64,000 bases of DNA from Symbiobacterium thermophilum IAM 14863. GTDB taxonomy: Bacteria; Bacillota; Sulfobacillia; Symbiobacteriales; Symbiobacteriaceae. Numbering within the stretch: position 1 is the first letter of the stretch; every line of letters starts with the position of its first letter. Under the pieces are notes generated by a model. That model saw nothing but the letters and a program-made list of their open reading frames with translations. It was not told where the DNA came from and did not search any database. A program made the position numbers and the translations under genes. Positions 38,715 to 53,085 of this stretch are shown in pieces. The stretch is from NCBI RefSeq assembly GCF_000009905.1, contig NC_006177.1:1860001-1924000 (forward strand), read 5' to 3'.

Positions 38715-40595
38715 ATCGAGTAGGAGGGGGCGGCTAGCCCCCGTCCTCTCACACCACCGGACATGCGGGTCCGCATCCGGCGGTTCGCCAGGATTGACGA
38801 GTCGCTTCATAGCATTCGGTCAGGCTTATCAGCCCCTGGGCACGCCAGTAGGCGTCGCCCAGGGCGCTGTTTAGTGGGCCACCTGCCATCCGCCACGGGC
38901 CTTTGCGGCTGTTGGCGAGTTGGTAGACTACCCATTCGGGCAAACCGAGGGCGCGTAACTCCCGAAAGCGCGTGCGTACACGCTTCCACTGCCTCCATAC
39001 GCATGCTCGCAGCCGACGCTTCAGCCATCCTTCGAGTCTTTCAAAGGCTGACCTGGCATCGGAGAGCGCATAGTACCCAACCCAGCCCCGCAAGTAGGCA
39101 TTCAGGCACCGGATTCGGTCCTCCATGCTCTGGCTGCGGTTGCGGTCCGTCAGCGTGCGGAGCTTGTCCTTCACGCGTTTCAGGCTCTTCGGGGCCAGCC
39201 GGATGCGCACTCCCCGGTGCTTGTAGAAGCTAAACCCGAGGAACTGCCGCTTCCACGGCCGGTCCACTGCGCTCTTCTCCTCGTTGACCTTCAAGCCGTA
39301 ACCGCTCCTGCAGGAAGTGGCGCACGCTCCTGTAGACCCGTTCTCCCGCCCGTTTGCTGCGGACGTAGATGTTGCAGTCATCGGCGTACCGGACAAAGTG
39401 GTGGCCACGGCGCTCCAGCTCCTTGTCGAGGTCATCCAGCAGGATGTTCGCCAGCAGCGGACTCAGCGGACCGCCCTGCGGCGTCCCTTCCTCCGTCGCC
39501 ACGACTACCCCGTTCAGCATGACCCCGGCCTGTAAGTACCGCCGGATCAGCCGCAGCACACGCTTATCCGTTACCCGCCGCGCCACGCGGGCCATCAGCA
39601 CGTCGTGGTTGACCCGGTCGAAGAACTTCTCCAGGTCCATGTCCACGACCCAGTCGTACCCTTCCTCCACGTACTGACGTGCCTTCCTGACCGCATCATG
39701 ACCCCGCCGCCCCGGCCGAAAGCCGTAGCTGGATTCGGAGAATGTCGGGTCAAAGATCGGCGTCAGTACTTGCAGGAGTGCCTGTTGGATCAGGCGGTCC
39801 ATCACGGTGGGAATCCCCAGCATCCGCTTGCCGCCGCCCGGTTTCGGGATTTCGACCCGGCGGACTGGCTGCGGTCTGTAGGTCCCCTGGAGCAGTTCCT
39901 CACGGATGCGGCTCCACTCCACGCGAATCTGGTCCCGCAGCCGTTCGGTGGGGACACCGTCCACGCCGGGAGCGCCTCCGTTCCGCTCCACCCGTTTCAG
40001 GGCGGCCAGCATGTTCTCCCTGGCCACCACCTGCTCCATCAGGTTGCTGTGCTCCCCGCGGGGTGACGTTCCGTCTTGTGCCGGCTGCCCACTCCGCCCT
40101 CTCGCCGTCCCTTGCGGCTTCACCGCTACCTCCGGCGAGCAGGTCCCGTTCGGGGTCTTCTGCGTTTGTCGCGGGCTGCTCGAACGCAACGGGTTCACCC
40201 CTTTCCTGACGTTCGGCCCTTCCCGGTTGGGGCGTCCCCCTGCCGGTACTATGGCCTTTGCTGACTTCTGCCGGTTCAGCTGCGTCTCCCGACGCAGGTT
40301 ACCAGCGTTGCTGGCGTTCCCGGCAGATCTCCCCGGGTAAGAACGCTGACCTTCACCCCGCACCCGCCCCATCTACCGCACCGCCCTTTGGCAGCTTCGG
40401 GTTTTGCTGTGTTCGGCCAGCTCACCCGAGCGGCACAGCCTCCTATGGGGTTCGTGTTCCTCGGGTCGTGGCTTTGCCTCGGGCTTCCTTCAGATTCCGC
40501 CTCACGACGGACACCCTTGCCTTTGGCTAACGGGCTGGTGCTGCCTCGCCCGTAGCGGACTTTCACCGCCAAGTCAGCGCCCATGCCGGGCACAC
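38715..40595 (-). mobile_element. group II intron (class C-like), 1,881 nt
   Basis: On the minus strand the intron starts with GTGTGCCCGGCATGGGCG at 40595 and ends with CTCCTACTCGAT at 38715. Domain V is visible as CCGGATGCGGACCCGCATG and TCCGGTGG, domain VI as GGGGGCTAGCCGCCCCC followed by TCCTACTC with its branch-point A. A reverse transcriptase/maturase gene lies in domain IV. The insertion point directly follows a terminator hairpin (40601-40629), which is the habit of class C introns. The encoded protein has a frameshift, so mobility in cis is doubtful. Confidence 0.88.
38749..40123 (-). pseudogene. ltrA: intron-encoded reverse transcriptase/maturase with a one-base frameshift
   Basis: The reverse transcriptase domain contains GGAPGVDGVP, SYGFRPGRRGHDA and the catalytic FVRYADDCNIYV. 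After HFLQER the frame breaks: one extra T in the minus strand (an A of the AA pair at plus 39300-39301) shifts the reading to LRLEGQR, while the correct continuation YGLKVNEEKSAV lies in the neighbouring frame and runs on through the X/maturase part (GWVGYYALSDARSAFERLEG) to the stop at 38749. GTG 40123 has GGAGG five bases upstream. A sequencing error could mimic the shift. Confidence 0.85.
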
Positions 40596-50515: not shown

Positions 50516-50788
50516 TTAGCGGCGAGGGCCACGCTCCGGACGAGGCTGGGCCTCGTTGACGGTGAGCTGACGGCCGGCCCACTCGGCGCCGTTCAGGGCG
50601 TCGATGACGGCCTGAGCCTGATCGGCCGGAACCTCCACGAAGCCGAAGCCGCGGCTGCGGCCCGTCTCCCGATCGGTAGCGATTCGGGCGCCGAGCACCT
50701 CAGCATGCTGGGACACGGCGTTCTGAAGATCCTCCGGCGTGACGGCCCACGGAAGGTTGCCGAAGTACAGGGTCTTGGTCATTCGCAT
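50516..50788 (-). CDS. RRM-domain RNA-binding protein
   Basis: A single RNA recognition motif of 80 residues makes up the protein: RNP2 is LYFGNLPW and RNP1 is RGFGFVEV, with aromatic residues for RNA stacking. Such glycine-poor stand-alone RRM proteins occur in cyanobacteria and several bacteria, often linked to cold response. ATG 50788 is preferred (GGGAG five bases upstream) over ATG 50782. A strong terminator follows. Confidence 0.93.
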   Translation of the reverse strand: MRMTKTLYFGNLPWAVTPEDLQNAVSQHAEVLGARIATDRETGRSRGFGFVEVPADQAQAVIDALNGAEWAGRQLTVNEAQPRPERGPRR

Positions 50789-50956
50789 TCTCTCTCCCAT
50801 CCATCTGGAGATATTTTTTGGATCGCGTTCGGGAGGGAGACGCGAGGAATTCGCCCGTATTCGGCAAACCAGCGCACCGCTCACCAAGCCGCAAACCAAT
50901 GATAGGATACGCCATTTCGGCGGAAATTGCAACCCCTGATTTAAATTTGTTATGCG

Positions 50957-51145: not shown

Positions 51146-51223
51146 ATGCACACCTCCTCGTGCCGTAGTTTTCCCGCGCGGCGGGCAGGATCATGGCATG
51201 CGGGCCGGGAGAGGTCGCCGATC

Positions 51224-51808
51224 CTTGCGCCACAGGCAGGTTCAGGCTCGCGTTCCACGCTGACCTTGTCTCAGGCGGCATTCACGAAAGTACACGTTCA
51301 TGTCAACGAAGGCAGCCCGCTCAGGATTGCACGACGATGAGGCTGCTCCTCCGCAGCTCTTCGCCCAGGTTGGCTGTGCATCAACCGGGCTCGACGAACT
51401 GGGCAGGCCGTGTCCCCGGTCTCATGGAAACGATGGTGCACTTTTCCACGCCCCTTGCGCCACAGGCAGTTTCAGGGCCGCGTCTTCCGCGGTCCTTGTC
51501 GGACGCGGCCTTCACCAAAGTACACATTCGTGGCAACGAAGCCAGCCCGCGCTGGGTCGGACGACGAGGACGCTGTTCGTCCCAACCTCTCCGGCCCGTT
51601 CACCTGTGCACCGGCCGGGCTCGACAGACTGAGCGGGCCGTGCGGCCGGTCTCATCGCAACGAATGTGCAATTTCCCGCACGCCTTGCGCAACAGGCCGT
51701 CTCAGGCTCGCGTCTCCCGCAGTCCTTGTCGCACGCAGTCTTCACCGAAGTGCACATTCGTTGCGACGGCGGCAGACCGACTCCTTCCAACCGACGCTGG
51801 TTGTGCAG
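51224..51808. repeat. array of three 230-bp tandem repeats
   Basis: Units start at 51224, 51454 and 51684, so the period is exactly 230 bases. The first 96 bases of units 1 and 2, and of 2 and 3, each agree at about 78 of 96 positions without any gap; the third unit decays after about 125 bases. CCTTGTC, ACATTCGT and, in the first two, CCGGGCTCGAC are conserved. The period is not a multiple of three, and no frame is shared, so the array is probably not coding. Neighbouring units contain arms of a hairpin (51655-51670 with 51751-51766). Confidence 0.85.
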
Positions 51809-51914
51809 GGATGAACGTCGATGCAAGCCGCCATGCTAGCGGTGTCGCCGACACTTCCGGGTCGGTCCTGACCGCCTCAGCACGAGCAGGCACTCCGTAA
51901 CCCACGCACACGCC

Positions 51915-51986
51915 ACGGTTCCGGCGGTGCCCGTGACGGCGGTTGCTGCGGTTCCCGTAAGGGCAGTTCCGGCGATGCCCGTGTGG
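51915..51986. repeat. three tandem 24-bp units
   Basis: Units at 51915-51938, 51939-51962 and 51963-51986 share GGTTCC/GCAGTTCC, GCGGT and CCCGT elements. In one plus-strand frame they spell VPAVPVTA, VAAVPVRA and VPAMPV, but no start signal is convincing. Confidence 0.7.
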
Positions 51987-52092
51987 TGCCATCGCCAGGT
52001 GGAAGACACGGGCGGTCCTGCGCATGGCGGCCGCCGGGCGCAGGGCCCGGCGGCCGCCAGATGCACGGCTACGTTGTACCCCCAAGTCCGTC

Positions 52093-52998
52093 CTACCGCG
52101 TCGGAATCGTGACGTTGTACCGCTGCTCCAGCAGCGACAGGAACGCCCGCACCGCCTCGCTGCGCCGCTCGCCCCGCCGCAGGATCAGCGACGTGGTCCG
52201 GCTGAGGCGCGGCAGCCCCGGCACGTTCAGCCGCACCAGCTGCCCCGAGATCAGCTCCCGCTGCACCGCCGACACCGGCTCCAGGGCGATCCCGAAGCCC
52301 AGCGCGACCATCGTCTTGATCGCCTCGTGGTTGTCGAACTCCATCACGAACTGCGGCTGGATGCCCATCTCCTCCAGCACCTGGTCCGTGGTCATACGGA
52401 AGCGGGCGCCGCGCACGTAGCCGATGAACGGCAGCTGCGCCAGATCGGCGTTGCTGACCACCGGCGGCAGATCGGCGGCGAAGCTGGGGCCTGCGACCAC
52501 CACCAGCGGATCCTCAAACAGCGGCACCACCTCGATGCGCTCGTGTACCTGCGGCGTCGTGACGAGCCCCACGTCCACCTCGCCGTGCAGGAGCATCGTC
52601 ACCGTCTCCCGGTTGTTCCCGGTCTTCACGTTGATCTTCACCCGCGGGTGCTCCCGCACGTACGCCGCCAGGAGCTCCGGCAGGGTAAACAGGCCGATCG
52701 TGTGCACGCAACCCACCGTCACGCTGCCGCTGCCGGGCGAGCGGTACTCCCGTACCGCCTCCTCGCACCGCTGCACCAGGTGGATCACCTGGCGGGCGTA
52801 GTCGTATACCAGCTCCCCCACCGGGGTGAGGTGGACCCGCTTGCCTTGCCGGGTGAACAGCTGCACCTGCAGGTAGTCTTCCAGGGCCCCCACCTGCTTG
52901 GTGACCGACGGCTGGGTCAGGTTCAGCACTTGCGCGGCGCGGGTGAACGACCCTTCCTCCACGACGCGGCAGAAGGTGGTCAGGTGCTGCAGCAGCAT
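52093..52998 (-). CDS. LysR-family transcriptional regulator
   Basis: The protein has the N-terminal winged helix-turn-helix (FCRVVEEGSFTRAAQVLNLT, then QPSVTKQVGALEDYLQVQLF) and the effector-binding domain typical of LysR regulators (301 residues). The target and inducer are unknown; the next gene on either side is not an obvious metabolic partner. ATG 52998 follows GGAGGGGGAG. A promoter is seen at 53086-53114, inside the end of the upstream gene. Confidence 0.93.
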   Translation of the reverse strand: MLLQHLTTFCRVVEEGSFTRAAQVLNLTQPSVTKQVGALEDYLQVQLFTRQGKRVHLTPVGELVYDYARQVIHLVQRCEEAVREYRSPGSGSVTVGCVHTIGLFTLPELLAAYVREHPRVKINVKTGNNRETVTMLLHGEVDVGLVTTPQVHERIEVVPLFEDPLVVVAGPSFAADLPPVVSNADLAQLPFIGYVRGARFRMTTDQVLEEMGIQPQFVMEFDNHEAIKTMVALGFGIALEPVSAVQRELISGQLVRLNVPGLPRLSRTTSLILRRGERRSEAVRAFLSLLEQRYNVTIPTR

Positions 52999-53054
52999 CG
53001 AACTCCCCCTCCGGGTCGGCCCTCGCATCGCCGGCGAGATCCGATTCGCACAAA

Positions 53055-53085
53055 GAATGGGAAGGCGCATGTTGCCTTCCCATTC
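53055..53085 (-). terminator. terminator of the MoxR-DUF58-DUF4129 operon
   Basis: GAATGGGAAGGC (53055-53066) and GCCTTCCCATTC (53074-53085) form a perfect 12-bp stem with a seven-base loop, followed on the minus strand by TTTGTG. Confidence 0.8.

Follow-up and report, generated by a model that had tools for sequence, protein, structure and literature searches.

Intergenic paired-palindrome repeats of Symbiobacterium thermophilum form a genus-restricted family of small tandem arrays

REPINs, among the closest described counterparts of the repeat studied here, are in Pseudomonas fluorescens SBW25 inverted pairs of palindromes placed 71 or 110 bp apart with a less conserved middle, and they also form ordered tandem clusters that include their flanks (PMC3116915). 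Terminal TA dinucleotides and TA target duplications mark two enterobacterial repeats, ERIC (RU-1; 127 bp) and the longer YPAL (about 167 bp) (PMC2759123). A MITE with an internal minisatellite is described from Porphyromonas gingivalis (PMC4596501). We found no account of repeats in S. thermophilum in the literature searched.

In this work we analysed an intergenic tandem array in a 64-kb stretch of the S. thermophilum genome (hereafter the window) and searched the whole genome (G000; 3,566,135 bp, one contig) for its relatives. This array is one of the loci of an intergenic repeat family that is restricted to the genus, with an element about 118 bp long. As in REPINs, a conserved palindromic pair is inverted and held at a preferred distance (84 bp here), and the element is intergenic, symmetric overall, less conserved in its middle and found in tandem clusters together with its flanks. 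It differs from REPINs in its motif (GAAnGTGCACnTTC), in its copy number (about 30 against hundreds) and in lying nearly always in tandem arrays; moreover, REPINs are defined by the RAYT transposase, whereas no RAYT was found in S. thermophilum. ERIC and YPAL are likewise intergenic, non-coding, palindromic, MITE-like and of similar length, and no mover is named for them or for the present element. However, the TA ends and TA duplications of ERIC and YPAL were not seen here, at alignment ends or at junctions, and the sequences are unrelated as judged by inspection only. The P. gingivalis element also ties a bacterial miniature inverted-repeat element to tandem repetition, but there the minisatellite lies inside one MITE, while here the repeated unit is the whole element plus a spacer. 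By analogy, the element appears to work like a REPIN- or MITE-type repeat, and we do not assign it to a named family.

The array in the window and its surroundings

The features of the locus are listed below in window coordinates; motifs, spacers and the non-homologous segment carry no strand.

50516-50932, minus strand: gene for an RRM protein, neighbour of the array
51190-51308, plus strand: element copy 1, degenerate (model R1, 41 bits); left arm unrecognisable, left motif with 6 mismatches, conserved part about 51223-51308
51214-52092: segment without homology to the corresponding intergenic place in the two congeners G002 and G001 (locus comparison)
51286-51299: palindromic right-arm motif of copy 1, GAAAGTACACGTTC (motif search)
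51309-51420: 112-bp spacer separating copies 1 and 2, array-specific (interval between model matches)
51421-51538, plus strand: element copy 2, complete (model match, 87.6 bits)
51432-51445: palindromic left-arm motif of copy 2, GATGGTGCACTTTT (motif scoring)
51516-51529: palindromic right-arm motif of copy 2, CAAAGTACACATTC, at 84 bp from its left-arm partner (motif scoring)
51539-51650: 112-bp spacer separating copies 2 and 3, array-specific (interval between model matches)
51651-51768, plus strand: element copy 3, complete (model match, 92.2 bits)
51662-51675: palindromic left-arm motif of copy 3, GAATGTGCAATTTC (motif scoring)
51746-51759: palindromic right-arm motif of copy 3, CGAAGTGCACATTC, at 84 bp from its left-arm partner (motif scoring)
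52093-53061, minus strand: gene for a LysR regulator, neighbour of the array

The first-pass annotation had described this segment as three exact 230-bp tandem repeats. A repeat search recovers three 97-nt copies, which start at 51223, 51453 and 51683, one base below the starts first assigned (51224, 51454 and 51684), and are spaced by 230 and 230 nt with no insertion or deletion. TRF reports the same period (51223-51768, 2.4 copies, 78% matches, 0% indels, score 635) and ranks the array as the top-scoring one of the window; in a shuffle control over 51200-52090 the best ungapped 97-bp match was 79/97, against a maximum of 50/97 among 100 shuffles. The three indel-free copies are therefore real, and the word exact holds for their period but not for the copies themselves, which are 74-81% identical over 97 bp and of which the third is shortened, its homology to copy 2 stopping at about 51768. 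Pairwise identities over 96-97 bp are 81% for copies 1 and 2, 81% for copies 2 and 3, and 74% for the outer pair, in agreement with the figure of about 81% proposed for the first 96 bases of neighbouring units; copies 1 and 2 can be aligned over the whole 230 nt (76% identity). The heptamer CCTTGTC also lies at fixed places, as had been noticed, at 51264, 51494 and 51724.

The longest open reading frame across the array has a flat codon-position G+C content (0.64/0.64/0.64), compared with 0.70/0.42/0.93 in the adjacent LysR gene, and gives no Pfam match. These two results rule out protein coding, and the description of the segment as gene-free stands.

Two other features of the window were observed: a separate repeat of 2.8 copies with a 24-bp period, a short distance downstream of the array at 51916-51983, and, at 38715-40511 on the minus strand, signatures of a group II intron (D1-D4 and an Intron_gpII domain).

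Anatomy and distribution of the element

A model built from 25 elements was run over 61 genomes overall. It detects about 29 distinct 118-bp elements at seven intergenic loci of the S. thermophilum genome:

131.1-132.5 kb
497.3 kb, single element
640.3-642.9 kb
1911.2-1911.8 kb, the array of the window
2294.2-2295.1 kb
2647.0-2647.7 kb
2704.7-2706.1 kb

About 30 elements were found on some 14 contigs of the sister species (G002, a metagenome-assembled genome, 'Bacillota bacterium Bin_10'), none in the other congener (G001), and the remaining relatives gave three weak single matches (E 8e-5 to 6e-3). Counts of the bare motif against its reversed pattern follow the same distribution, with 50 versus 5 in S. 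thermophilum, 69 versus 7 in the sister species and 5 versus 9 in G001. The S. thermophilum elements lie mostly in tandem arrays, which show no consistent placing or orientation relative to adjacent genes, and few motifs occur outside arrays. For the latter reason we rejected the idea that the motif is the operator of a dispersed regulon. For annotation purposes, these gene-free tandem segments of the genome can be described as one repeat family.

In all related arrays each element contains two inverted copies of the palindromic 14-mer, which read GAATGTGCACTTTC and GAAAGTGCACATTC. The distance between them is exactly 84 bp in 48 of the 56 scored elements and 83-85 bp in 54 (83 bp in four, 85 bp in two), the last two elements having spacings of 68 and 112 bp; 84 bp corresponds to 8.0 helical turns at 10.5 bp per turn. 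The array period, on the other hand, differs between S. thermophilum arrays (176, 197, 230, 250 and about 253 bp), as does the spacer DNA between elements. The first-pass annotation had suggested selection on spacing: a spacing is indeed constrained, but it is the 84 bp between the inverted motifs within the unit and not the 230-bp period. When 19 arrays are compared, identity averages 0.89 in the motifs, 0.59-0.63 in the 11-bp shoulders and 0.55-0.61 in the interior, but falls to 0.33-0.36 farther out; this drop beyond the shoulders sets the length of the element at about 118 bp. Imperfect palindromic symmetry runs through the whole element: the outer shoulder, the motif and the interior were each more symmetric than any of 5,000 permutations. 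It is thus short and non-coding with terminal inverted repeats, like a MITE, while its dyad symmetry, its inverted palindromic pair at a preferred distance, its intergenic position and its ordered tandem clusters with flanks are those of a REPIN.

A neutral tandem duplication of decayed, functionless sequence would account for the degeneracy of copy 1 and for the lack of the window array in both congeners. Nevertheless, the element and its 84-bp spacing recur at seven loci in one species and on about 14 contigs in the other, and the motifs are far better conserved than the outside sequence (0.89 against 0.33-0.36), so that this explanation is disfavoured and in our opinion very improbable.

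Three minor observations concern these loci. The 640-kb array is split by an insertion sequence that encodes a 548-amino-acid DDE transposase (DDE_Tnp_1_4; about 640.6-642.3 kb, L036:9556-11290). Other tandem repeats lie near array loci, one with an 11-bp period and 25 copies (L013:4829-5104), the other with a 45-bp period and 5.4 copies (L011:80-324). Finally, at about 3,365.5-3,366.1 kb (L071:1480-2050) there is another tandem array, of seven 85-bp copies, each with a 45-bp palindrome (GGCGAAATGTGCAC...GTGCACATTCCGCC) whose GTGCAC core is in common with the 118-bp element; it is possibly a cousin family.

DNA or RNA, and turnover between species

Among the options initially offered for the array were a multi-unit structured RNA and a family of tandem small RNAs. 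Single elements do fold better than shuffled sequences (z from -1.75 to -4.9), which is expected of a palindrome, and the two strands fold alike where both were tested. Covariation was examined with RNAalifold, mutual information and per-diagonal pairing statistics. In RNAalifold, covariation contributes -0.05 kcal/mol on the alignment of 25 elements and +0.06 kcal/mol on that of 37, and the Watson-Crick excess over shuffled columns along the palindrome axis has a mean z of 0.06, not above that of other diagonals. Isolated exceptions are a slight covariation of the inner dyad CTTGT...ACAAG and two axis pairs that covary (alignment columns 8-113 and 57-64, z 4.9 and 5.5), although the axis overall does not; these, with the folding scores, are what speaks for an RNA. 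Rfam searches at gathering and permissive thresholds gave matches at chance level only, by which a known RNA family was rejected, and no promoter- or terminator-like site was seen. The lack of overall covariation, of an Rfam match and of such sites favours a DNA-level role, and we infer that the element acts as DNA. An RNA function finds no support in these results and is, in our view, quite unlikely; among the options initially offered, an array of sites for a DNA-acting protein comes closest.

The first-pass annotation had also taken absence of compensatory change, together with an untranscribed array confined to one strain, as the mark of a neutral duplication. Compensatory change is essentially absent and the window array is missing in both congeners, in line with such a duplication; the element family, however, is present in the sister species.

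Comparison of the two species that carry the element indicates how its arrays evolve. At about five loci, arrays occupy corresponding places as judged by neighbouring genes (for the 2647-kb locus only one flank matches); copy numbers differ there between the species, and so, for the most part, do the spacers. Across species, elements of such syntenic arrays resemble each other no more than unrelated elements do (identity 0.603 versus 0.606), except that the pair near 2647 kb retains its likeness (0.715). Different arrays within one species have identities of 0.69 in G002 and 0.61 in S. thermophilum, within-species likeness being thus clearer in G002. On a tree of elements the species label changes 3 times, against 18.3 times when shuffled, a contrast to which near-copies inside arrays contribute. 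This grouping by species rather than by common locus suggests that arrays turn over or are homogenised fast. As likeness follows the species at dispersed loci while array places are kept, turnover of bacterial tandem arrays should be measurable with a few more Symbiobacterium genomes.

Gain or loss of elements also occurs. At the place of the window array both congeners lack an array, and the interval between the RRM and LysR genes holds a short ORF instead; S. thermophilum has apparently lost a gene there or had it replaced. The G002 counterpart of the 131-kb locus is one degenerate half element, and at two single-copy sites of G002 the element is absent from S. thermophilum. At these empty sites the indels measure from about 240 bp to 1.2 kb and exceed the element, so that no discrete 118-bp insertion was seen; no target-site duplication was visible at the junctions read, a point on which the element departs from a typical MITE. 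At one place, between the same two neighbours, the array lies on opposite strands in the two species (L039:9233-10053 and L047:7515-8355), a tentative case of array inversion since the asymmetry of the element is weak.

These comparisons bear on the possibility that the arrays are multi-site landing pads for a cellular DNA-binding protein with a nucleoid, segregation or regulatory function, the motifs being its putative sites and the eight-turn spacing placing two dimers on one face of the helix. The two motifs and their distance are the most conserved parts of the element, and array places are retained between species while the surrounding sequence has changed, both of which would suit such a protein. 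However, congener G001 lacks the element, some loci are lost or reduced in one species, and the arrays follow no regular pattern of position or orientation with respect to adjacent genes, which makes this proposal doubtful.

A putative protein that maintains the element

Our preferred reading, to which we give a probability of about 0.6, is that of a DNA-level, Symbiobacterium-restricted paired-palindrome repeat of REPIN/MITE-like type, which forms small satellites and is maintained by a putative DNA-acting protein. The two motifs would be the recognition pair of a protein responsible for moving, copying or recombining the element, as for REPINs and MITEs; unequal recombination or slippage of the element with its flank might then generate the tandem arrays, and copies would be spread or homogenised within one genome. 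At most loci the element has been multiplied in tandem along with an array-specific spacer. The reading is supported by the distribution of the copies and motifs over the genomes, the 84-bp spacing, the conservation profile, the dyad symmetry with no overall covariation, the grouping by species, the differences in presence and copy number at syntenic places, the scarcity of motifs outside arrays and the likeness to REPINs. Against it, RAYT tyrosine transposases (Y1_Tnp, PF01797) were detected in none of the three Symbiobacterium genomes while 5 of 14 controls were positive, and no other partner protein was found; the empty sites show neither a discrete insertion nor a target-site duplication, and the five loci common to both species fit long residence as well as mobility. 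RAYT explains REPIN-type repeats; a REPIN architecture with no RAYT found raises the question of what maintains and spreads the pairs.

A bolder version, which we regard as unlikely, takes the arrays for bacterial satellite DNA with sites that co-evolve with the putative protein. Array places would then stay fixed while each species replaced the sequence across its genome, keeping only the motif pair and its eight-turn spacing. If true, dispersed tandem arrays would here undergo concerted evolution in the manner of eukaryotic satellites, through either a new kind of non-RAYT mover or a chromosome-organising protein.

Some insertion sequences typically carry inverted, repeated terminal sites, and the elements could accordingly be remnants of insertion-sequence ends, for instance IS21-like, with multiple terminal sites for a transposase. 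IS21-type genes are present in S. thermophilum, but the motif is absent from the inspected IS21 loci at the 3' side read and no full element with motif-bounded ends was found; we hold this origin to be very improbable. A phage or plasmid origin was rejected, as the element had no match in phage and plasmid collections and the paired pattern none in IMG/VR.

In a species-genome collection, the search for the paired pattern returned the sister species G002 and a few inverted pairs elsewhere. The latter are pairs of the form GTGCACTTTC...GAAAGTGCAC in unrelated bacteria (L093:998-1084, L105:3657-3743, L094:4797-4883, L096:6152-6226, L108:6807-6896 and L109:1366-1446), several of which extend into longer inverted repeats, and they include three alike pairs in Dermabacteraceae. 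Such pairs possibly reflect convergence or a common recognition sequence.
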